The notes under the pieces: generated by a model
Seen by the model: only the letters and a program-made list of their open reading frames with translations
Told to the model about the DNA's origin: nothing
Databases searched by the model: none
Program-made: the position numbers and the translations under genes
DNA from: a virus
Length of the DNA: 45,802 bases
Direction: 5' to 3' (one strand)
IMG/VR virus record: IMGVR_UViG_3300026484_000025
Coordinates: 1 to 45,802 of that record
In this document: in pieces, positions 12,142-45,802 of the stretch
How the letters are laid out: every line of letters begins with the position of its first letter
How positions within the stretch are numbered: the stretch's first letter is position 1

Positions 12142-13776
12142 TTATCTTAATTCAAACCAGCTTCTAAAAGAATTAGAAGTATTTGCCTTGTATGTATCTC
12201 CATCTGGAACGATAAAAGTCATTGTTATATCTTCACCATCGGGAAGAACATTACTTGCGATTTTCACTCCATTTACATAAAACTCATCAATACCATTAGA
12301 AGAAGCATTATATGAAACTACAACCATTATTGGTTTCCCAGTTGAATTTGTATATGTAACATTATCACTTCTACTTGCTAAAACATTTTGCCAAGTTTGA
12401 TTTATCCCTATAACATCTGCTTTATCAGCTTTATTGCCTAAACCACTATCCATCTGAGCTTTACTTACAGCTTCATCAGCATTAACTGCATCAGCAACTT
12501 TAAAAGTTTGAGTAGCACTACCATTTAAACCTGCTTTTGTATCTAGTAGCTGATCATCTTCACTTTTAGTGTAATGATCATCTAATACAAATGCACCATA
12601 AGCTACAACATCAACTATGTCACCAGCAGAAGCACCAACAGCTAATACAATATCTGCACCACTACTAGTATCAACATCTACACCATTCTCTAGCTTTCTA
12701 CCATTTAGGTACACATCAGCAAATCCTGCATCATACCCACCAGTAATATTAAATGTTGTTTGCTCAGCAGTTGCAGTGAACACTTGTCTTACACTAGTAC
12801 CATTAATAACTGTACCAGCTGCTCTCCAACCATCTGTGTCATATAATCGTAACCCTTTTAAGCTAGCATCTGAGGACGTATTTAGGTACATATCCCCTAC
12901 CACAGTAGCACTACCATCTGGTCTTGTAGATGGGTCAGTTTCACTAGGTGGGTAGTATGTATCTGCATACCTACTTACGTCATCTATACTATTACTAACA
13001 GTAGTAACCTCAACTATGCTGCCAGCAACTACTGACACATCTGTACTATTAGCTGCTATAGTGTCTATAGCATCGTAGTGTGGGCTTACTAATGCTTCCT
13101 TACTAACTACAGTTTCTTCCATTACAGCTACATTAGCCTCACTAGTAGCTGCATTGCTTTCAGATGTACTAGCATTAGTCTCTGAGACACTAGCATTAGT
13201 TTCTGATGTAGCTGCATTATTCTCACTAACTAGGGCATTTAGCTCAGATGTCTTAGCATTATTCTCACTAACTAGAGCATTAGCTTCTGATGTAGCTGCA
13301 TTAGCTGCTGATGCAGATGCACTACTTGCACCAGCAGAGGATGTTGTAGCACTAGCTGAAGCACTAGCTGCACTGTTCTGTGCCTGTAGTGCTGCCTCTT
13401 CAGCCTTTTCAACTGAAGGCTGTGCTAAAGTTTCTCCAAATTCATCAGCTGTAGTAGCAACCTCTACCCATATAGTACTACCCATAACAGGATTAGTATA
13501 AAATAGTATACTGTTATCTACTACTTGCCACTTATCTACTGTTACTAAGTCGAAAGATGCTGGAGCATTTGCTCCTCTCTTCCATATATTATCTGGATAA
13601 CTCCAGTCTGCTTGGTTTATACTCCCATCTACTAATATGTCTCCTGTACCATCTGAAGGTAGGGTATTATCATATATGTATATATAAGGTCTTGCAAACT
13701 GTGAGCTTCTTATAATAAAGTCAGATAGAAACCTATTTGTGTTCCCATCTGCAATATAGCTCTTTTTACTAATCAT
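12142..13776 (-). CDS. Tail fibre, T7 gp17-type N-terminal attachment domain
   Basis: A 544-residue protein. The first ~130 residues match the T7 gp17 tail-attachment domain in character (ADGNTNRFLSDFII, YIYIYDN, then DNSILFYTNPVMGSTIWV). A trimeric stalk follows (about 140-220), built of repeats like ATSEANALVSENNA. A beta domain with TFNITGGYDAGFADVYLNG comes next, and a C-terminal head (about 460-544). It attaches at the tubular-protein ring and binds the host surface. It follows the tubular B gene by 14 bases. The stalk repeats are protein-level coiled-coil repeats. Confidence 0.85.
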   Translation of the reverse strand: MISKKSYIADGNTNRFLSDFIIRSSQFARPYIYIYDNTLPSDGTGDILVDGSINQADWSYPDNIWKRGANAPASFDLVTVDKWQVVDNSILFYTNPVMGSTIWVEVATTADEFGETLAQPSVEKAEEAALQAQNSAASASASATTSSAGASSASASAANAATSEANALVSENNAKTSELNALVSENNAATSETNASVSETNASTSESNAATSEANVAVMEETVVSKEALVSPHYDAIDTIAANSTDVSVVAGSIVEVTTVSNSIDDVSRYADTYYPPSETDPSTRPDGSATVVGDMYLNTSSDASLKGLRLYDTDGWRAAGTVINGTSVRQVFTATAEQTTFNITGGYDAGFADVYLNGRKLENGVDVDTSSGADIVLAVGASAGDIVDVVAYGAFVLDDHYTKSEDDQLLDTKAGLNGSATQTFKVADAVNADEAVSKAQMDSGLGNKADKADVIGINQTWQNVLASRSDNVTYTNSTGKPIMVVVSYNASSNGIDEFYVNGVKIASNVLPDGEDITMTFIVPDGDTYKANTSNSFRSWFELR

Positions 13777-22182: not shown

Positions 22183-22210
22183 TCTGTATTAGTCGTAGAC
22201 TTCCTACATT
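22183..22210 (-). promoter_or_regulatory. Phage RNA polymerase promoter (late genes)
   Basis: On the minus strand AGGAAG is followed by TCTACGACTAATACAGAA. The core TACGACT equals the recognition part of the T7 promoter (TACGACTCACTATAG), followed by a shorter AATACAG spacer. Near-identical copies are at 32665, 40692 and 43117. It overlaps the nrdB stop codon and is followed by a leader of about 130 bases to the first structural-operon gene. Confidence 0.8.
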
Positions 22211-32649: not shown

Positions 32650-32664
32650 AGCTTTTCCTTTCTC

Positions 32665-32690
32665 GGTATTAGTCGTAGACTTCCTGCATT
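32665..32690 (-). promoter_or_regulatory. Phage RNA polymerase promoter (replication genes)
   Basis: The minus strand reads AGGAAG then TCTACGACTAATACCGAGA, identical in its core to the copy at 22183. It overlaps the stop codon of the RNA polymerase gene and gives a leader of about 20 bases to the 76-residue gene and SSB. It would switch on replication genes once the polymerase is made. Confidence 0.8.
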
Positions 32691-35145
32691 AACTTATTAT
32701 GTACTGACTATCATAGACTTCTTCAAGGTCTAAGTCTCCTACATATGGTATTTCTACCTCCCCCTCAGGGTCTAACTCTTCAGCAAAGAGTTTAAGAGGG
32801 TCTGCCTTCATTACTTGAATAAAGCCTTCTTTATAACAATCTCTCACATTCTCCCCCTCATTAGGATGCACAAGGAAACAATCATGTATAGTTCCAATGT
32901 CTGCCCCAATATGGTCTACTACATACATAAGTATTGTAGCATCTATAGAGTGTATATAGTTTGCTGCTATACTACTTAACTGCTTCTGTCTCTTTACTTC
33001 ATCAGTAAACTCATGTATTGATAGTGTCCCTAATACTGTCTGTACTCTCACCATGTTTGCTTTGTATACTGCTTGAAATACAGGTATATTATAGATAGGA
33101 GTATGCCATAGAGCAGGTTTAGTCAGTAGTCTTGCGACATCCTTGAGGTACTCCTGCCCTGCCCTAGCTCCTTTAACTATATCAAATATACTTTCATGGG
33201 TTAGAGTTGTCCATAGATAGTTTACTACCCACTCATCCCCCTTCCAGAAAGCTTTACCTGCCAACTTCATATCATCCATAACACCCCAATTCTGAAGCTT
33301 CATCCCTCTTAAGGATACACTATAAGGTACAGTCATTACATTCCTCTTAGTCATACTCCTAGTGAAGTTCCCCTTCATACTATCAGCTTCTACCTTAGTT
33401 GTTACTACTCTTTCTAGTCCTTCTTTATCGGTGAAGGTAATATATGGTGGGTAGTTAATGTCTGAGAGTCTCTTCTCTACTCCATTAGCTACCTCAGCAT
33501 ATAAATCACTTCTTGTATTTCCTATAACACAAGTACTTCTTGCACCTGTCTTGTCTCTTAATAGTCCACTATACATCTGTACTCCAGAATTCACTGCATC
33601 TAATTGAATAGGTAAGTGGACCTTCCTTCCTTGTACATAGTCCTGTAGAGCCATACAAGCTGCTAGAAACTCATAAGGGGAGTCTGCTCCTGTCCAGTAT
33701 GCTAAGTTACCCATAGGGTCTTCAGCAGCTTCTAGCATAGCCTCTCTGTTCTCTTCAGCCCACTGAATTCTATTAGGGAACTCTTCTTTATCTAGCCCAT
33801 AAGTATTTGCACTATGTACCTTCAACCAATAAGTCCCTTTGTCATTTAAGTAATGACCATCAGCAAACTCTAGCATTGCTTTTACATATCCTTTACTCTG
33901 TGGGTTATAGAAGTCTGTTATAGGATATACTCTTCCTCTATAATCTAGTTGATACACATAATAGAACCTATCAAAATCCTTCATCTTATCTACTACACCC
34001 ATTGTCATTAGGTACTGTAATCTTCTTCCTTGCTCTCCATCTAAGCCAATCTTAATCTTCTCTCTCTTTCTATTCCAGATAGCCCAAGTCTTTTTCTCTT
34101 CCTCTGTGGGATTTTCTGGGTAATTTCCGAAACCATCAATTAAATCCTCTACCTTAGTAGGAGTAGAGGTAGGAATATCGCCATATAGCCTAGGCAATGT
34201 TGGGGGACTTCTAGGGTCTACCATATTATACTTGTACATATGTTGCACTATCTCTACAATCCTACTATTGTTTCTCCAAGCTGTCTTTTGAAGTTTGTTA
34301 ATAGTTCTTCTTATTTTAGATGTATCCTCCTGTTTCATTCTGTCCTTAACCTTACTTAGTCTAATCTTCAATAAACTATATTTAACTGTAAGGTACCCTC
34401 CATCTTCAGATGTAGTCCAATCCCTAGGAGGCACTACCATAGGAGGATATAAGGCTAATGTGGGCTTAATGTAATACATATTAGTTAATACTTCCATTAC
34501 TTCTTCAGTAAAAGATACAAATAATGTTGCATACCTATCTATTCCTTTTCTCCATCTTCTCTGCTTAAGTATAAGATTAGTACCACTTGCTAATACTAAG
34601 TCTAGTAGCAATGCACCTGCCTTTACATCCTCTGCTGCTGTAGCTTTACTCTCTACATCTTTAAAGGAGGCTAAGTGTTTATCTATAAGTTCTTGTTTTC
34701 TCTTAGCTGATGCTCTCCTATACTCACTACCTAAGTAGGCTATAAGTTTAGGATTAGTCTCCTCAGCATGTTTAAATGTCTGTAATACCCTTAAATTCTG
34801 TACTATGTACTTAGATAATGTAGTAGCTTTAACCATATTACTTCTCTGAGCTACTTTCTTAGTTAATGATTGTAGTATAACATAGGCTAAGATACCTGCA
34901 TCATCACATAAGTACTTAACATACCTTTGTGTCTTTCCTGTATGACCTTTGTACTCTGTATCTAAGTACTCTTGTATCTTATCTCTGATAGGTACAAAAT
35001 ACACTTTCATTAGAGAATTACCATACTTTGTCTCATCAAATCTACCTTGTTCAATAGCCTTAGTTAGATTAATATATTCCTTTCTTTGTAGTGCATCTTT
35101 TGCCTCCTGCTCAAACTCTTTCTGTCTCTCTACTAGGTCAATCAT
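32689..35145 (-). CDS. Single-subunit DNA-dependent RNA polymerase, T7 gp1-like
   Basis: An 818-residue polymerase (T7: 883). Motifs: YQLDYRGRVYPITDFYNPQ; motif A PIQLDAVNSGVQMYSG (about 515) with the catalytic Asp; motif B RSMTKRNVMTVPYSVS (about 598), which has the Arg, Lys and Tyr of the O-helix; motif C HDCFLVHPNEG (about 754). It reads the four TACGACT-type promoters. Its ATG overlaps the end of the small gene at 35142 through the island's shared GGAGGT junction. It belongs to the operon behind promoter 40692, which would allow self-activation. Confidence 0.96.
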   Translation of the reverse strand: MIDLVERQKEFEQEAKDALQRKEYINLTKAIEQGRFDETKYGNSLMKVYFVPIRDKIQEYLDTEYKGHTGKTQRYVKYLCDDAGILAYVILQSLTKKVAQRSNMVKATTLSKYIVQNLRVLQTFKHAEETNPKLIAYLGSEYRRASAKRKQELIDKHLASFKDVESKATAAEDVKAGALLLDLVLASGTNLILKQRRWRKGIDRYATLFVSFTEEVMEVLTNMYYIKPTLALYPPMVVPPRDWTTSEDGGYLTVKYSLLKIRLSKVKDRMKQEDTSKIRRTINKLQKTAWRNNSRIVEIVQHMYKYNMVDPRSPPTLPRLYGDIPTSTPTKVEDLIDGFGNYPENPTEEEKKTWAIWNRKREKIKIGLDGEQGRRLQYLMTMGVVDKMKDFDRFYYVYQLDYRGRVYPITDFYNPQSKGYVKAMLEFADGHYLNDKGTYWLKVHSANTYGLDKEEFPNRIQWAEENREAMLEAAEDPMGNLAYWTGADSPYEFLAACMALQDYVQGRKVHLPIQLDAVNSGVQMYSGLLRDKTGARSTCVIGNTRSDLYAEVANGVEKRLSDINYPPYITFTDKEGLERVVTTKVEADSMKGNFTRSMTKRNVMTVPYSVSLRGMKLQNWGVMDDMKLAGKAFWKGDEWVVNYLWTTLTHESIFDIVKGARAGQEYLKDVARLLTKPALWHTPIYNIPVFQAVYKANMVRVQTVLGTLSIHEFTDEVKRQKQLSSIAANYIHSIDATILMYVVDHIGADIGTIHDCFLVHPNEGENVRDCYKEGFIQVMKADPLKLFAEELDPEGEVEIPYVGDLDLEEVYDSQYIIS

Positions 35146-35372
35146 ATAAGCCTACCTCCTATAAGAGAATTAGGGCGAGCTAACTGTACCCAATAAGAGA
35201 AGTGCCAATTAGCCTCAGCAAATTTTAAGTTCTCTCCAACAATATACCTCTCAATCTCAGCTATAGTGTATATCTTTCCAAATACACCTGTACTACCATT
35301 ATCATCTAATTGTTGTTGTGATACTTTCCTTTTTATAAGTTTTACTTTATCTCCTACTTTAAACTTTCTCAT
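35142..35372 (-). CDS. 76-residue SH3-like small protein, tail IGGRLI
   Basis: The protein begins MRKFKVGDKVKLIKRK, which suggests a small beta-barrel (SH3/KOW-like), and ends SLIGGRLI. I choose ATG 35372, which overlaps the TAA of the amidotransferase gene (TAATG) with GGAG ten bases upstream, over ATG 35387. The last codons (ATA GGA GGT) form the ribosome site of the RNA polymerase gene. Unknown function. Confidence 0.65.
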   Translation of the reverse strand: MRKFKVGDKVKLIKRKVSQQQLDDNGSTGVFGKIYTIAEIERYIVGENLKFAEANWHFSYWVQLARPNSLIGGRLI

Positions 35373-36361
35373 TAGATTGTTCTCCATTCTCCAATTAAGG
35401 TATGTTCAGCCATGTAATTAGGGGCAATATGTGTCTTAGTGTATACTATTACTTCTTCAGAAGATAAGTCATCAGAGTAATTAACTGTAATACTTTGTTT
35501 AGTGTAATGATATGGGTATCCCTCTAAGTTATCTAGTCTGTTTAGTTCTTCATCTGATACAACATATACTTCACCTAAAATATGGAACCCCTTCTCATTC
35601 TCTTCAAGTAGGTAAGGAAATGCTGCACCTTTACCAATCATTGCCCATCTTTCTTGTGTCCTAGCTTTTCCAAGAAATGTAGCCCCTTCAAGAAGTTTAC
35701 TGTTACCGTAGCCTCTCTTAAGTGTACCATAAACAAATACTTTATGTTTCTTTTCTAAGGTTTTATGAGTGCTTACTTTCTTAGGCATCTGATATGTGGT
35801 CTTCTTAGGAGGACACTTCCCTGCTCTACACCACCCCTCATCTTTAAGGTGGTAGTCATTGCTGTACCAAGCCCCATCTTCTTTAGATGTAATACCTAGG
35901 TACTCATTCATAATAGTTATACTCCCATTGTCTTCAAAGAATACTAATCTATTAATCCTATCATCAATGTAAGGCTTAATAAGAGGGGCTATGTCCTCAA
36001 TAAATTTATAATCACATAAGCTAATTGTATCAGCTAACTCTTGACTGTCTGATTTCTTAGAACCACCTAGTCCAAACATAGTGCCATTATGAAACATAAC
36101 ACCACTTGGCACATCAAAAGGATGTATGTTATTATAGTCCTTAGCACCTCTTGTAGCAAATCTTAGGTGTGCCACTAGGGTGTGTTGCTCTAAAGAGGAT
36201 ACAACCCCCTTAAATTGATTGTAGTTGAATGTTTTATAGGTCTTTACAAGCCCATCTTCATACCAAGCTACACCATACCCATCACTATTATGTTTCTGAG
36301 CCTTATCCATTGCCTTAAAGTTTACTTGTTTCCCTGCTTGTTTTACTAACATCCAACACAT
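35372..36361 (-). CDS. Class II glutamine amidotransferase fused to gamma-glutamylcyclotransferase
   Basis: A 329-residue two-domain protein. Residues 1-170: Ntn-hydrolase GATase II, with Cys2 as N-terminal nucleophile after Met removal, HNSDGYGVAWYEDG, LVAHLRFATRG and FHNGTMFG. Residues about 205-329: GGCT/AIG2-like domain with VYGTLKRG and RLDNLEGYP, including the catalytic Glu. The first domain releases ammonia or transfers a glutamyl amide group; the second cyclises gamma-glutamyl amines. Together with the ATP-grasp and amidoligase genes this matches the phage amidoligase systems described by comparative genomics. Confidence 0.85.
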   Translation of the reverse strand: MCWMLVKQAGKQVNFKAMDKAQKHNSDGYGVAWYEDGLVKTYKTFNYNQFKGVVSSLEQHTLVAHLRFATRGAKDYNNIHPFDVPSGVMFHNGTMFGLGGSKKSDSQELADTISLCDYKFIEDIAPLIKPYIDDRINRLVFFEDNGSITIMNEYLGITSKEDGAWYSNDYHLKDEGWCRAGKCPPKKTTYQMPKKVSTHKTLEKKHKVFVYGTLKRGYGNSKLLEGATFLGKARTQERWAMIGKGAAFPYLLEENEKGFHILGEVYVVSDEELNRLDNLEGYPYHYTKQSITVNYSDDLSSEEVIVYTKTHIAPNYMAEHTLIGEWRTI

Positions 36362-36372
36362 ATTATGTTCTC

Positions 36373-36600
36373 CTATTTTTCTATTAAAATCTTAAACCAG
36401 TCATCAACATCTCTGTCATACTGCATACAAAAGTTATCTACTGCTACACCTAAATCGCTAACTGTATCTCCAAACTCATCCACCAAAGCATCATAAAAGA
36501 AATCATCATCATTTCTCATCTTAATCTCTATCTGTGCATCTCTCCAATTATCTTCCATAATCTCTCTTCTAAGAGTATCTCTGTCCAATTGTGTAATCAT
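36373..36600 (-). CDS. 75-residue acidic hypothetical protein
   Basis: An acidic, helical protein (MITQLDRDTLRREIMEDNWRD in parts, many Asp) that lacks the GGKLL tail of its neighbours. It is preceded by the shared junction at 36597 and followed after 11 bases by the amidotransferase gene with TAGGAG. No family recognised. Confidence 0.6.
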   Translation of the reverse strand: MITQLDRDTLRREIMEDNWRDAQIEIKMRNDDDFFYDALVDEFGDTVSDLGVAVDNFCMQYDRDVDDWFKILIEK

Positions 36601-36797
36601 AATAGTTTACCTCCTGTTGTATTACTCATATGTGCTTCTACTGTAAGCATATTCTTTTCACCTATAATGTGGGAAAGTCTAAGCCCTGTATCAGTCCTAA
36701 AGTACTCTCCTACTACTAGATATCTTCTACCTTTAGTAAAGTGCCTAGGATATTCTTCATAGGCATACTCAGTTGGAGTTACATATACCTTCCTCAT
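36597..36797 (-). CDS. 66-residue small protein, tail TGGKLL
   Basis: Starts MRKVYVTPTEYAYEEYPRHF and has a KGRRYLVVGEYFRTDTGLRLSHII pattern of short beta strands, as in small SH3-like phage proteins. It ends SNTTGGKLL, with the ribosome site of the next gene encoded in the tail. Both ends use four-base ATGA overlaps. Confidence 0.65.
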   Translation of the reverse strand: MRKVYVTPTEYAYEEYPRHFTKGRRYLVVGEYFRTDTGLRLSHIIGEKNMLTVEAHMSNTTGGKLL

Positions 36798-36964
36798 AAC
36801 AATCTTCCTCCTACTTTATTTGTATAGAGAGGTTCACAATTACAAGCAAGAACATCATTATTAATTACTGTATACTGATGTTCATCAAACCAAAAATCAG
36901 GATGATCCATAAGTACTGTTGTTATAAGCCCCTCATATTTTCCATATGTAACCCTAACTTTCAT
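36794..36964 (-). CDS. 56-residue small protein, tail VGGRLL
   Basis: The frame starts at ATG 36964, overlapping the TGA of the upstream gene, and ends at TGA 36796-36794, overlapping the next ATG. The peptide begins MKVRVTYGKYEGLIT and ends NKVGGRLL. Beta-rich with two Cys (ACNCEP). It fills an otherwise empty 160-base gap exactly and uses the shared GGAGG junction at both ends. Confidence 0.7.
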   Translation of the reverse strand: MKVRVTYGKYEGLITTVLMDHPDFWFDEHQYTVINNDVLACNCEPLYTNKVGGRLL

Positions 36965-37209
36965 AGTAGCTTGCCTCCTACTATGTTTCTTTCATTTATG
37001 TAGAAGTAGTAATCCTTAATGCAACTAATACCTGTCCTTTCTCCTAAGTCATCAATAAAAGAACCATTTGATAGTACATATGTCTTATCAACTCTTGTGG
37101 TTCCCTCCTGGTTATTTCTTAGTACTCTAAAGCTTATATCTTTATACACATAAGCACCTCTATTACCAAACTTATCTCTACAATAAGAATATAGATTACA
37201 ACTTTTCAC
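36961..37209 (-). CDS. 82-residue small protein, GTG start, tail VGGKLL
   Basis: The start is GTG at 37209: the previous junction reads GGAGGCAAATTGTTGTGA, so here the overlapping start is GTG rather than ATG. The protein is basic and beta-rich (YCRDKFGNRGAYVYKDISF) and ends ERNIVGGKLL. Unknown function. Confidence 0.65.
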   Translation of the reverse strand: MKSCNLYSYCRDKFGNRGAYVYKDISFRVLRNNQEGTTRVDKTYVLSNGSFIDDLGERTGISCIKDYYFYINERNIVGGKLL

Positions 37210-37421
37210 AACAATTTGCCTCCTATTGTATTATGTAAAATGGCTGTATCTCTTTTCTCTATTAGATAATATGGTGCACCATCTACTATCTCATAGCAAG
37301 GTATACTACCACCACCACCCCTTAGTGTATCTCCTGTCCCTTGTACAGAAAGTATTGTACCTTTAAGTATCCCACTGCAACATTTAGGATTATTTACTAT
37401 AACTTTTACCTTAATTATCAT
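37206..37421 (-). CDS. 71-residue small protein, tail IGGKLL
   Basis: Starts MIIKVKVIVNNPKCCSG, contains KGTILSVQGTGDTLRGGGG and a strand YEIVDGAPYYLIEKR, and ends HNTIGGKLL. The pattern fits a small beta-barrel with a Gly-rich loop. It overlaps the ATP-grasp stop (ATGA) and the next gene's GTG. Confidence 0.65.
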   Translation of the reverse strand: MIIKVKVIVNNPKCCSGILKGTILSVQGTGDTLRGGGGSIPCYEIVDGAPYYLIEKRDTAILHNTIGGKLL

Positions 37422-38146
37422 ATTAGTTCCTTAATAGCATTACCTACTAGCTCTAAAGTAGTTCCTTCTATACCAAATGCAGTGTTTACTTCTAATACAT
37501 AGAGCTTACCTTCTGCATCTTCAATTATATCTACAGCACCAAAGTCAAGACCAAGAGCATTAACAGCATCAATCCCAAGCTGACCACATAAAGGAGGTAC
37601 AGTAAAGTCATTCCTAGCAAAGATATAACCACTACTATGATTCCATACATGTTCTCCATAAGTTCCTTCATAATCATTTTTCCTTTTCTTCTTTTTGAAG
37701 TCTACTACTTTATCTCCTACTACAATAGCCCTGTACTCTGCTACCTTATTAATATACTCTACATATAGAGGGGCTGTAGGAAGCTCATCAGCAGTTCCAA
37801 CTACTATACCAATACCAGAGTGACCATGAAGGGTAGTTCGTGCCATATAGAGCTTCTCAGGGGCTAATCCTAGCTTGTGATGATAATAATTAGGTACATT
37901 GACTTCCATTTGTCTTAATCTAAGTAAGGTATCAAGTTTATTACTAGCCAACTGTACATTTTCTAGCTTGTTTATTTGTCTAGCATTACCTACATTACCC
38001 TTTCCATTCCCCCAGTTGATTACTGTATCTGTATTTTTACCTCTAAATTTAGAACCAGTGATTAATAATCTCTTAGCCCCAATGTATTTAGCTAACAATC
38101 TAGCTGATTTACTATGCCCATAAGCATTTACTCTTACTCTACTCAT
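37418..38146 (-). CDS. ATP-grasp ligase
   Basis: A 242-residue ATP-grasp protein. The N-terminal part has a Rossmann-like segment (SRVRVNAYGHSKSARLLAKYI) and NKLDTLLRLRQMEVNVPNYY. The ATP-binding region has LHGHSGIGIVVG and APLYVEYINKVAEYRAIVVG. The C-terminal metal-binding motif is LYVLEVNTAFGIEGTTLE (about 213-230), with the Glu and Asn that bind Mg-ATP. Enzymes of this fold form peptide-like bonds through acyl-phosphates. It overlaps its neighbours by four bases, between small GGKLL-tailed proteins. Confidence 0.88.
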   Translation of the reverse strand: MSRVRVNAYGHSKSARLLAKYIGAKRLLITGSKFRGKNTDTVINWGNGKGNVGNARQINKLENVQLASNKLDTLLRLRQMEVNVPNYYHHKLGLAPEKLYMARTTLHGHSGIGIVVGTADELPTAPLYVEYINKVAEYRAIVVGDKVVDFKKKKRKNDYEGTYGEHVWNHSSGYIFARNDFTVPPLCGQLGIDAVNALGLDFGAVDIIEDAEGKLYVLEVNTAFGIEGTTLELVGNAIKELI

Positions 38147-38367
38147 AACAATTTACCTCCTATTATATTATCTGTTGTTGTAACTATAGCATTAACTTCT
38201 AACCAATTATGTGTCCAAGAACTACACCCATGAAAAGAAGCACATGCAGTCTCATAATGAGTAGTCTCTTCTCCTCCATAGTGTCCTGAGTATGACTCTA
38301 CTATAGTGTATGTCTTAGATTTATCATCTTTTAACTGAAACTTTGTGCCTAGTGGATAACTCTTCAT
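38143..38367 (-). CDS. 74-residue small protein, tail IGGKLL
   Basis: Starts MKSYPLGTKFQLKDDKSKTY, has TIVESYSGHYGG and ASFHGCSSWTHNWLEV, a beta-barrel-like pattern with two Cys, and ends DNIIGGKLL. Four-base overlaps at both ends. The tail codes for the ribosome site of the ATP-grasp gene. Confidence 0.65.
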   Translation of the reverse strand: MKSYPLGTKFQLKDDKSKTYTIVESYSGHYGGEETTHYETACASFHGCSSWTHNWLEVNAIVTTTDNIIGGKLL

Positions 38368-38558
38368 AACAACCTACCTCCTATTGTATTTTGTTCTACT
38401 ATTCTCCAATGAGTACCTATATGATGAGCAGAGATATTTACTATACTCTTATCATCTCTACGGTAAGTAAAGTATGTATCATATATAATAGCTTTATATA
38501 CCTTACCTTTAGTGGAAAAGAGACCCTTAGTGACTCTCTTTAATAATACCTTTTTCAT
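38364..38558 (-). CDS. 64-residue small protein, tail IGGRLL
   Basis: Starts MKKVLLKRVTKGLFSTKGKVY and follows the common small SH3-like scheme (KGKVYKAIIYDTYFTYRRDD, WRIVEQ), ending NTIGGRLL. Its ribosome site TGGAGG overlaps the end of the amidoligase gene. Unknown function. Confidence 0.65.
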   Translation of the reverse strand: MKKVLLKRVTKGLFSTKGKVYKAIIYDTYFTYRRDDKSIVNISAHHIGTHWRIVEQNTIGGRLL

Positions 38559-38563
38559 ACTAC

Positions 38564-39973
38564 CTACACCTCCAAAGTGAGTTCTGTTATGCTTGTAATA
38601 TCTACAGAAGTGCTCTCTCTATAACCACTATCATCCTCAAAGTAAAAAGATATTCTATTTTCATCTAACACATAATGTTTTATCTTGACCCCAGTATACA
38701 GATGTATATCTGTCTTGATAGTTATAACATCTCCAAACTCTGAGAGAGTTAGCTTGCTTATGACCTTTTGTATGGTTTTTGGCTCTCTATAGGTAACTAC
38801 TGCTTCTTCAGCCTCTAGCTCATCTAGTGAGCCTACTACAGCTATAAGGTCAGCATACTTCTTAGATTTTTTAGTCATATATGCAAACCATCCTTTAGCA
38901 CTTACAGTAGTAGAGTGATATTTGGTATACTTAATAATACTCTCTAAGAACTGTACATAAGCTCTAAGATTTTGTGCCTTAGTAGTCCCCTTAAAAAATC
39001 TAGCTTCTACTGTAGGAGTATTCTGTTCATTAAGGAATAGGCTTCTACCTCTTCCCTCTGTCTTGGCATTCTTCTTACTATGTACTTTGCCTGTTGGTAG
39101 TAGTTGACAGTAATCAGTGAGGTCTCTACCTCCTACTTTAGTAGCTATCTTCTCCATCTTGTACATTAAGAAGTAGAAGAGTGAGTAATGTTTATCAGAT
39201 ACAAAAGCAGTTCTACTGATGTGTACATGACAGCCATTAGCATTGTGGTCTTCATAAGGCAGCACATTAAGTTGAGATAACCAACTATCTTTTCCCATTA
39301 ATGCAGAAAAGCTATGAGGCATAGACACCATCTCTACATTGTAGCCACTCCCTCTAATAGAGCTATCATCCTTAAGATATACACTATTACTATGCTTATA
39401 CATAAAGTCCCGTAGTAGTCGCTTATCAGTAGACATCTCTACCTCTAATCCATACCATACTGGTGTATCCTCGTCAGACTTTATTTGTGAACCAATAAAC
39501 TTGTAATCAGGTTTATAAGAGTAGTTATTTTTATGCACTGCCTTAGTTGCACAGGCTTCACATAGTTTATACTTTTTCTCTACTTTTACTGTAGCAATCT
39601 CACCACAAGAGCATAGAGGATGGTCTGATACATCACTAATGTGACCAGTCTTAGTATCTAAAAACTTAGTAGTAGTTACTTTGATGAGAGTAGTGTCAGG
39701 GTAATTTGAGGTGACTTTCAAACCCTCAATGTAGCCTATCCATTTGTAGTGTATAGGTAACTTCTCTCCAGTACCACACTGAATAATAAAAGCTACCTCA
39801 TTATCCTCTCCATAAGGTAGTACATCTACTACTTTAGAGTCTTTGAAGTTGTAGGTCTTAATGAGTCCAGCATTATATGCTATACCATCTAGTCCTGATC
39901 CCCCCTCCTCTACTTCATAACACATCTCTCTAATAGTTTTTTCTGCCTTTAGTTTAATACTATAACCTAACAT
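38564..39973 (-). CDS. Phage amidoligase (glutamine synthetase-like COOH-NH2 ligase)
   Basis: A 469-residue protein. The N-terminal part includes a zinc ribbon (CSCGEIATV...CEAC, about 120-142). The amidoligase core follows: WYGLEVEMSTDKRL (about 175), DDSSIRGSGYNVEMVSMP, NGCHVHISRTAF (about 246) and NTPTVEARFFKGT (about 325), the Glu/His residues that bind two metals and ATP in this family. It would join a carboxylate to an amine on an unidentified substrate. It starts inside the last codons of the 71-residue gene at 39967. Confidence 0.85.
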   Translation of the reverse strand: MLGYSIKLKAEKTIREMCYEVEEGGSGLDGIAYNAGLIKTYNFKDSKVVDVLPYGEDNEVAFIIQCGTGEKLPIHYKWIGYIEGLKVTSNYPDTTLIKVTTTKFLDTKTGHISDVSDHPLCSCGEIATVKVEKKYKLCEACATKAVHKNNYSYKPDYKFIGSQIKSDEDTPVWYGLEVEMSTDKRLLRDFMYKHSNSVYLKDDSSIRGSGYNVEMVSMPHSFSALMGKDSWLSQLNVLPYEDHNANGCHVHISRTAFVSDKHYSLFYFLMYKMEKIATKVGGRDLTDYCQLLPTGKVHSKKNAKTEGRGRSLFLNEQNTPTVEARFFKGTTKAQNLRAYVQFLESIIKYTKYHSTTVSAKGWFAYMTKKSKKYADLIAVVGSLDELEAEEAVVTYREPKTIQKVISKLTLSEFGDVITIKTDIHLYTGVKIKHYVLDENRISFYFEDDSGYRESTSVDITSITELTLEV

Positions 39974-40515: not shown

Positions 40516-40653
40516 TTACTTACTTCTTCTGTATTTACTCTTACTATGCCCAGCATCAAGGTGTCCATATTCTCTACTTCTCTTTAGGTACTTAATATCA
40601 GTACCACTCATACCTTTAAACTCTCTACTTACTTTCTTGATTGTCTTACCCAT
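40516..40653 (-). CDS. 45-residue basic protein behind phage promoter
   Basis: The frame starts at ATG 40653 after AAGAGGAGAG and stops at TAA 40516. The peptide MGKTIKKVSREFKGMSGTD... ends KSKYRRSK and is strongly basic, so nucleic-acid binding is possible. It is the first gene after the promoter at 40692. Unknown family. Confidence 0.6.
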   Translation of the reverse strand: MGKTIKKVSREFKGMSGTDIKYLKRSREYGHLDAGHSKSKYRRSK

Positions 40654-40691
40654 TGTTATACTCTCCTCTTGTGTACCTAGTATTAATCCCT

Positions 40692-40718
40692 CGGTATTAG
40701 TTGTAGACTTCCTACATT
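40692..40718 (-). promoter_or_regulatory. Phage RNA polymerase promoter (amidoligase-RNAP operon)
   Basis: The minus strand reads AGGAAG then TCTACAACTAATACCGAGG. It differs from the other three copies by A for G inside the TACGACT core, which may weaken it. It is about 40 bases upstream of the 45-residue gene and heads the operon that includes the RNA polymerase itself. Confidence 0.75.
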
Positions 40719-42372: not shown

Positions 42373-42406
42373 CAAAGAGATAAAAGTCAGTGCCTATCTC
42401 TCTTTG
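42373..42406 (-). promoter_or_regulatory. Hairpin just after the downstream early promoter
   Basis: The minus strand has CAAAGAGA ... TCTCTTTG, an eight-pair stem with a long loop, beginning a few bases after the predicted start of transcripts from the repeat at 42408-42468. A hairpin of the same shape but different sequence follows the other repeat (42578-42605). It would cap the 5' end of the early RNA and may protect or regulate it. Confidence 0.45.
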
Positions 42407-42407
42407 G

Positions 42408-42468
42408 TATCTGTATTATAACATAGAAAAGTAAACAGAAGCTAAAATATAGCTTAAATTTACTTATT
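42408..42468 (-). promoter_or_regulatory. Tandem early promoter, copy nearer the genes (61-bp repeat)
   Basis: This 61-bp unit matches 42607-42667 except at two positions. On the minus strand it contains ATGTTATAATACAG, a perfect extended -10 element (TGnTATAAT; TATAAT at 42420-42415) for the host RNA polymerase. No good -35 is seen. Transcripts would run left into the early genes, the same role as the T7 A1-A3 promoters. Confidence 0.7.
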
Positions 42469-42577: not shown

Positions 42578-42605
42578 CAAACAAGAGATACCTAATCCTT
42601 GTTTG
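42578..42605 (-). promoter_or_regulatory. Hairpin just after the upstream early promoter
   Basis: The minus strand CAAACAAG...CTTGTTTG forms an eight-pair stem directly after the start region of the repeat at 42607-42667. Same placement as the hairpin at 42373-42406, although the stem sequence differs, which suggests that the structure is kept. Confidence 0.45.
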
Positions 42606-42606
42606 T

Positions 42607-42667
42607 TATCTGTATTATAACATAGAAAAGTAAACAGAAGCTAAAACATAGCTTAAATTTAGTTATT
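42607..42667 (-). promoter_or_regulatory. Tandem early promoter, upstream copy (61-bp repeat)
   Basis: Second copy of the 61-bp unit, 199 bases from the first, with the same TGTTATAAT element (TATAAT at 42619-42614). Between the two units lies a GGGGGGG run (42529-42535) inside a GGCC...GGCC inverted repeat. Confidence 0.7.
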
Positions 42668-43116: not shown

Positions 43117-43145
43117 TCTGTATTAGTCGTAGACTTCCTACAATG
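43117..43145 (-). promoter_or_regulatory. Phage RNA polymerase promoter in the early/origin region
   Basis: The minus strand reads AGGAAG then TCTACGACTAATACAGAAAG, equal in core to 22183. It lies four bases beyond the terminase stop. No gene follows for 1.4 kb, so it may serve replication priming or a non-coding RNA as well as early genes. The start region can form a CAGAAA...TTTCTG stem. Confidence 0.78.
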
Positions 43146-44925: not shown

Positions 44926-44935
44926 TATAAAGCTT

Positions 44936-45340
44936 CTACACCACTATTTCAGGCTCTACAACCTTTGGAACATATTTCATCTCAAACTTACGAAACACAC
45001 CACACTCATTACCATTTAAGTTTGTGTAATCAATCTCATCTGCTGTAAAGTTAAGTTCATCTTCAATACCATTATCTCTCATATCTACTAAACCTTTTGA
45101 TTTAAGATATGTAATGATAAATGCTTCTTCTCCGTTAGCTGGTATAGCCCATCTAAAAGCCACAAATCTATCATCAATAATATCTACTGGTGTAAAAAAC
45201 TCTCCTAGCTCATCACTAAGCTCATTGATTGAGTAATATGTACCATCTTCTTTAAGCATCTTTTTAAGCTCTATCGGTGTATCTAGTGTTGCTTTAGGCA
45301 CTATGATGTAATCATAAGCCTCTTTTAGTTCTTCTATCAT
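44936..45340 (-). CDS. Fibre-partner protein, second copy
   Basis: Encodes the same 134 residues as 1078-1482. Here it is followed not by the holin and spanin genes but by terminator hairpins and the large terminase. Probably the same gene seen twice through assembly overlap. Confidence 0.6.
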   Translation of the reverse strand: MIEELKEAYDYIIVPKATLDTPIELKKMLKEDGTYYSINELSDELGEFFTPVDIIDDRFVAFRWAIPANGEEAFIITYLKSKGLVDMRDNGIEDELNFTADEIDYTNLNGNECGVFRKFEMKYVPKVVEPEIVV

Positions 45341-45802
45341 GATAATAATCCTTTTTCAACTGCTTTATTGTATAGTTCTAATGGGTCTTGTGGGGTTGTA
45401 TGTATTTTGAATAATCTGATATTACCCATAATACTTCTTGCTAAATGGTTATTATTCATTAAATATAAATCACATATTTCAGTATTTATAGGGTCATCTA
45501 AAGCCTCAACATCACCTACTATAATACCATTTACAAATAATGAAATTTCATCTGTACTTTGATTTATATAATAGTTGATGTGAATTGGTGTGTCATCTGG
45601 AAAACTAAAATATTGTTGAGTATTTTGAGTATTTACCTCTGAATACAAAGTGCTACCTACACCTAATCGCTCAATCCTAAAGAATGATGTATTACCTTGA
45701 CCTATATATAGTAATTTATTGTAGTTGTACTTTGGCAAGGAACTATCAGCCTCATATATAAATTCAATATTTGTCACATTTTCCAATGAGAAATTATTAG
45801 TT
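45337..45802 (-). CDS. Tail-fibre C-terminal part, second copy, cut by window edge
   Basis: Encodes the same C-terminal ~154 residues (LamG-like domain) as the fibre gene at 1479-3086; the 5' part lies outside the window. An internal Met at 45786 is not a true start. Overlaps the fibre-partner gene by four bases. Confidence 0.65.
   Translation of the reverse strand, partial: TNNFSLENVTNIEFIYEADSSLPKYNYNKLLYIGQGNTSFFRIERLGVGSTLYSEVNTQNTQQYFSFPDDTPIHINYYINQSTDEISLFVNGIIVGDVEALDDPINTEICDLYLMNNNHLARSIMGNIRLFKIHTTPQDPLELYNKAVEKGLLS

Follow-up and report, generated by a model that had tools for sequence, protein, structure and literature searches.

What is a set of enzymes of gamma-glutamyl and amide chemistry doing directly upstream of the RNA polymerase gene of a T7-like phage, and why do the small proteins encoded among these enzymes share one C-terminal ending? 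The locus lies in a 45.8-kb virus record, IMG/VR IMGVR_UViG_3300026484_000025, which we analyzed at its full length (positions 1 to 45,802; hereafter the window). It is an island of genes for a glutamine synthetase (GS)-like amidoligase, a RimK-like ATP-grasp ligase, a fusion of a class-II glutamine amidotransferase (GATase II) with a gamma-glutamylamine cyclotransferase (GGACT), and ten small proteins, nine of which carry the common ending. We assign a probability of roughly 0.55 to the reading that this island is an acquired gamma-glutamyl/amide module of the phiEco32/LUZ24 type with coupled, variable passengers, and that the ending (the tail, N-x-I-G-G-K-L-L) comes mainly from the ribosome-binding site of the next gene. 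The enzyme set itself is known; the new point is the shared ending of the small proteins.

Every island gene is on the minus strand and most are joined by 4-nt overlaps, which makes co-transcription of the island very likely. Searches of phage records at the DNA level gave no close relative. When viral contigs were scanned with the amidoligase or with the ATP-grasp protein, a single relative emerged, IMGVR_UViG_3300026533_000007 (hereafter the sister phage). Both phages have the three enzymes in one and the same order, with 73% identity for the ATP-grasp ligase, 58% for the fusion and 51% for the amidoligase, alongside 73% for the RNA polymerase.

Three enzymes of gamma-glutamyl and amide chemistry

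The enzyme identities proposed in an initial annotation of the window hold: all three proteins give profile matches to these families at their minus-strand positions (Table 1), and the catalytic signatures, whose conservation that annotation had singled out as a check, are intact on alignment in each of them. Besides its PHROG match, the amidoligase scores 19.1 bits (E = 0.0013) with Pfam Amidoligase_2 (PF12224), under the cut-off of 22. Its GxExE, DxS, E, HxH, R, N, TxExR signature is nevertheless present and invariant (G175-x-E177-x-E179, D203, S205, E214, H249, H251, R283, N315, T321, E323, R325) across an alignment of six phage amidoligases that includes two sequences with strong Pfam Amidoligase_2 matches. 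The zinc ribbon that had been ascribed to this protein is there as a cysteine ribbon, placed after the N-terminal region and ahead of the catalytic domain, but its spacing in the window copy is irregular (C121-x-C123...C138-x2-C141). The sister phage has CxxC...CxxC, the amidoligases of phages MEP402 and ctgrD200 have two cysteine knuckles at this position, and the alignment shows no ribbon in the C75C1 and Vibrio phage amidoligases.

The ATP-grasp ligase exceeds the Pfam RimK (PF08443) cut-off (25.7 vs 21 bits), and its HSGxGI loop and Mg/ATP residues D206, E219 and N221 are invariant in seven relatives. In the fusion, GATase_4 (PF13230, E = 1e-7, above the cut-off) covers residues 15-95 and GGACT (PF06094, E = 8e-20, 72 bits vs a cut-off of 22.8) covers residues 208-327. 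The GATase II residues Cys2, R67, T70, N92-G93 (oxyanion hole) and D105 are invariant in six phage proteins, and the YGTL loop (YGTLKRG) and E280 of the second half align with human GGACT, in which the position aligned with E280 is Glu in structure 3jub and Gln in 3jud. Among NCBIfam models the best match of the GATase half is EgtC (E = 2.5e-7), far under the equivalog cut-off. AlphaFold2 models made from two-sequence alignments were too poor to support a fold for either the amidoligase (predicted local distance difference test, pLDDT, 37) or the small protein s9 (pLDDT 43); the zinc-ribbon fold of the one and the beta-rich character proposed for the small proteins are readings at the sequence level.

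As judged from these families, the amidoligase and the ATP-grasp ligase would form amide bonds, adding an amino acid or a gamma-glutamyl group, and the fusion may remove or transfer gamma-glutamyl groups, supply ammonia from glutamine, or both. The target may be a host metabolite, a cell-wall peptide or a protein. In the gamma-glutamyl protecting-group systems of butirosin (BtrJ/BtrG) and ergothioneine (EgtA/EgtC), a gamma-glutamyl group is put on by a ligase of the ATP-grasp or GS-like kind and taken off by an AIG2/GGCT protein or an EgtC-like GATase. The likeness to the island is one of resemblance only, as a small-molecule pathway is not evident near it.

Origin of the shared C-terminal ending

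The initial annotation had counted at least eight tiny proteins among the enzymes, and the count is in fact ten. Nine of them (s1 to s9, Table 1) end in N-x-[IVLT]-G-G-[KR]-L-[LIC], one with S in place of N. We reject a chance origin, as the tail is present in nine of the ten small island open reading frames (ORFs) and in no other called gene of the window. The DNA encoding the tail (AAT ACA ATA GGA GGT AAA TTA TTA TGA) holds both an AGGAGG ribosome-binding site and the overlapping start codon of the next gene. Such an overlap with the downstream start accompanies all of the tails (9/9), the one small island gene that overlaps no following start encodes no tail, and no tail was found on any gene uncoupled from the next one.

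The sister phage carries six tails, in which GG[KE]L is followed by L, IC, IW or LE; one of them has GGG for GGA. Between its amidoligase and ATP-grasp genes a 13-codon ORF, MSTKEYPIGGKLL, replaces two small genes (sister locus L003:6943-6984) and seems to be what is left of a deleted small gene, retained as a coupling leader. Two pattern scans for the tail over 2.9 million viral contigs found it confined to the genus, returning the sister phage together with single ribosome-site or chance matches. In GC-rich phage contigs (L110, 12924-13409; L113, reverse strand) of one metagenome, a 161-aa protein ends in NNLGGKLL or NNSGGKLL at an ATGA overlap, which shows that such an ending can arise from a AGGAGGTAAATTA ribosome site. 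As the overlap is of the same type, these endings support the ribosome-site explanation.

It is the overlap of every tail with a start, the tail-free protein that lacks such an overlap, and the mini-ORF kept by the sister phage that lead us to favor this explanation. The tail is most likely a translation-coupling junction: its last codons would be there mainly to provide the next gene with a ribosome-binding site, most genes of the module would be translationally coupled, as their overlaps suggest, and the small proteins would be variable passengers. Several points weigh against our reading of the island. The first Leu of the GG[KR]L segment is Leu in 15/15 tails (nine window, six sister) and is written with five codons (TTA, TTG, CTA, CTT, CTG), whereas Leu triplets make up 6.6% of the corresponding stretch in other genes; a constant Leu is not well explained by a pure ribosome site, and this codon pattern is a point in favor of a protein-level signal. 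AGGAGG occurs in 4/41 other phage genes, the usual ribosome-binding sequence being of the AAGGAGA type. On the enzymatic side, the GATase could supply ammonia instead of removing gamma-glutamyl groups, which would be a different pathway.

We regard it as doubtful that NxIGGKLL was selected as protein, for example as a docking peptide for one partner, a site that the co-encoded ligases join, or a degron recognized by a host protease. The first Leu codon varies only synonymously, the Asn, whose codon lies outside the ribosome site, is written as AAT or AAC, the GGA to GGG change in the sister phage keeps Gly while weakening the AGGAGG core, and the tails are nearly identical on bodies that are mostly unrelated (few pairs at z > 3), all of which fit selection on the peptide. 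The constant overlap with a downstream start speaks against it, as does confinement to one genus, which provides few independent samples; the copies would not be independent at all if they spread by duplication or recombination. It is improbable that the tail is a true peptide signal on at least nine mostly unrelated proteins, recognized by a single factor, perhaps one of the island's two ligases, with the island marking or joining its small proteins. Tagging of the Pup or ubiquitin type was rejected, since it needs a C-terminal Gly-Gly followed by Glu/Gln, or a terminal Gly-Gly, and the tails read GG[KR]L[LIC]. More tentatively than the coupling junction, the tails can be taken as recombination junctions, at which small-gene cassettes are swapped within the 25-bp stop/ribosome-site/start sequence, homogenizing the tails and leaving the bodies unrelated. 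The differing small-gene content of the two phages around fixed enzymes is consistent with such exchange, and the sister mini-ORF resembles the leftover of a cassette deletion, but recombination alone would not lead one to expect that the tails differ mostly by synonymous or conservative changes, as they do. We therefore prefer ribosome coupling to a protein signal, with cassette swapping as a likely contributor.

As a protein signal, the tail would give the phage an unusual means of handling all of its tailed small proteins in one way. As a coupling junction and nothing more, it would be a striking case of coding sequence shaped by the ribosome site of the next gene, and a warning against taking such endings as motifs.

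The mixture of enzymes and small proteins had been thought to suggest one larger system, to be checked by their co-occurrence in other genomes. Outside the genus our comparisons do not support this: no homolog of the small proteins was detectable in 21 other enzyme-bearing loci, an outcome that the annotation itself had named as refuting. Most of the small genes between the enzymes also differ in the sister phage. The sister has orthologs of the small proteins so marked in Table 1 and of a 195-aa protein. Because it keeps the enzyme order and replaces most small genes, comparison of the two genomes indicates that the enzymes are fixed while many small genes turn over. In another T7-like phage (locus L053), where the enzymes were not found, one protein contains repeated copies of a domain similar to the body of s1.

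Occurrence of the enzyme set and its possible role

The enzyme set is not new. The amidoligase and GATase of phiEco32 were predicted to modify the cell wall against superinfection (Iyer et al. 2009), as reported in PMC10580990, which cites this prediction for phages MEP401/402; the LUZ24-like phage UFV-P2 has a single cluster annotated as amidoligase, GATase, ATP-grasp and AIG2/GGCT (PMC3890496). The link to such predicted phage sets made in the initial annotation agrees with this annotation and with the related loci we surveyed by profile. ATP-grasp loci outside the genus have an amidoligase in 15/17 cases, usually directly adjacent, and a GATase/GGCT match nearby in 13/17, from which we conclude that the set travels together. 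Both the window and the sister phage have all four functions (amidoligase, ATP-grasp, GATase II, GGCT) clustered; they were compared with loci L007 and L014-L018 and with UFV-P2. What is unusual is that a T7-like phage carries the set. Of some 80 loci with related RNA polymerases, only the window and the sister phage have it in full, and ctgrD200 has the enzymes without ATP-grasp in the stretch examined; many of these loci are partial, so that absence there is weak evidence.

Like the phiEco32/LUZ24-type cluster, the island brings the four enzymatic functions together near replication genes, and the ATP-grasp ligases of both belong to family phrog_2599. Unlike that cluster, it is carried by a T7-like phage that encodes an RNA polymerase of its own, it has GATase and GGACT in a single protein, and its enzyme genes are interspersed with small ORFs that share a C-terminus. 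The Methylophilales phages MEP401/MEP402 (PMC10580990) and Podoviridae ctgrD200 (MW202733) likewise have a GATase II gene directly after that of a cysteine-ribbon amidoligase, and in ctgrD200 the pair is upstream of a phage RNA polymerase as in the window, but ATP-grasp was not found in the stretches examined, the tails are not shared, and the MEP402 GATase has no GGACT match. Phage C75C1 and Podoviridae ctfjg026 have the same GATase II-GGACT fusion (29% identical), but their examined stretches yielded neither RNA polymerase nor ATP-grasp, and no tails.

A modification of the cell wall that blocks superinfection is a conjecture we hold with some reserve. It has the published phiEco32 prediction behind it, and the enzyme types suit peptide-amide chemistry. 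Against it, the sequence gives no pointer to peptidoglycan over a metabolite or a protein, and in the literature searched we found no direct functional test of the cluster, although it occurs in many phages. Far less probable is that the ATP-grasp protein is a graspetide-type maturase with the small proteins as its ribosomal peptide substrates. Small ORFs do flank its gene, and NCBIfam models of MvdC and MvdD match weakly (E ~2e-6 to 9e-6), but these scores, 27 and 25 bits, lie so far under the curated cut-offs of 425 and 475 that we reject the assignment. RimK-type glutamate ligases match better, and the ATP-grasp ligase accompanies amidoligase and GATase in phages where these small proteins were not found. 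DNA hypermodification was dropped as a candidate, there being no pointer to nucleotide chemistry in the island. The compact version of the set in this T7-like phage, with fused gamma-glutamyl-handling domains and recognizable promoters, offers a clean case for assigning the chemistry of the module.

Candidate promoters, gene order and genome setting

Four copies of the element TGTAGGAAGTCTACRACTAATACNGA lie in the window, each on the coding strand, against a chance expectation of 0.1 (Table 1). The sister phage has four matching copies with one mismatch each, three of which were checked as syntenic; the ACRACTAATAC part of the element reads ACAAAAAATAC there. These elements are most simply explained as promoters of the phage RNA polymerase. 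As one copy stands directly upstream of the island, the phage polymerase should also drive the island. The initial annotation had the enzymes made early because they lie upstream of the RNA polymerase gene; this holds in part only, as the syntenic phage-type promoter would add drive by the phage polymerase, and the arrangement suggests that the island is probably expressed early and middle, not early only. The module would then be transcribed with the early/middle genes, both from promoters farther upstream and from the phage-type promoter of its own.

Two 66-bp direct repeats, 95% identical and bearing TATAAT, are candidate early host-type promoters or operators. They lie in a 1.4-kb stretch without long ORFs and are flanked by an AAGCTA...TAGCTT inverted repeat.

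Table 1. Island genes, RNA polymerase gene and candidate promoter elements of the window
Feature	Position	Strand	Evidence or remark
Promoter element copy, directly downstream of terminase gene	43117..43142	-	
Two 66-bp repeats, 95% identical, with TATAAT	42403-42468 and 42602-42667	-	
Phage-type promoter element TGTAGGAAGTCTACAACTAATACCGA, directly upstream of island	40691..40716	-	syntenic copy in sister
Basic ORF, 45 aa, head of island	40516..40653	-	kept in sister
s1, 87 aa	40179..40442	-	ends NYLGGKLI
s2, 71 aa	39967..40182	-	ends NTIGGKLC
GS-like amidoligase, 469 aa, cysteine ribbon C121/C123 + C138/C141	38564..39973	-	PHROG_2443 E = 1e-9; six-phage alignment
s3, 64 aa	38364..38558	-	ends NTIGGRLL
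s4, 74 aa	38143..38367	-	ends NIIGGKLL
RimK-like ATP-grasp ligase, 242 aa	37418..38146	-	Pfam RimK; PHROG_2599 E = 2.5e-57
s5, 71 aa	37206..37421	-	ends NTIGGKLL
s6, 82 aa, GTG start	36961..37209	-	ends NIVGGKLL
s7, 56 aa	36794..36964	-	ends NKVGGRLL
s8, 66 aa	36597..36797	-	ends NTTGGKLL; sister ortholog
Acidic protein, 75 aa	36373..36600	-	no tail; sister ortholog, 51% identical
GATase II-GGACT fusion, 329 aa	35372..36361	-	GATase_4 + GGACT domains
s9, 81 aa (internal ATG start possible)	35142..35387	-	ends SLIGGRLI; sister ortholog; overlaps RNA polymerase start
Single-subunit RNA polymerase, 818 aa, next gene after island	32689..35145	-	tblastn to phage RNA polymerases
Promoter element copy, directly downstream of RNA polymerase	32663..32688	-	
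Promoter element copy, downstream of nucleotide-metabolism genes	22183..22208	-	

The window has a G+C content of 35% and encodes a T7-type terminase large subunit (554 bits vs a cut-off of 150), a family-A DNA polymerase, a ribonucleotide reductase, and head-tail connector, tail and internal virion proteins. The best tblastn match of its RNA polymerase is Roseobacter phage CRP-143 (43% identity). A direct repeat of 868 bp (100% identity, same orientation) stands near both ends of the window, at 1077-1944 and 44935-45802. It is likely that the genome is circular or terminally redundant and that bases 1-1076 of the record are an alternative or chimeric extension. A tail-fibre-like gene (12142-13776) contains two 94-bp direct repeats, 77% identical, within 13126-13303.

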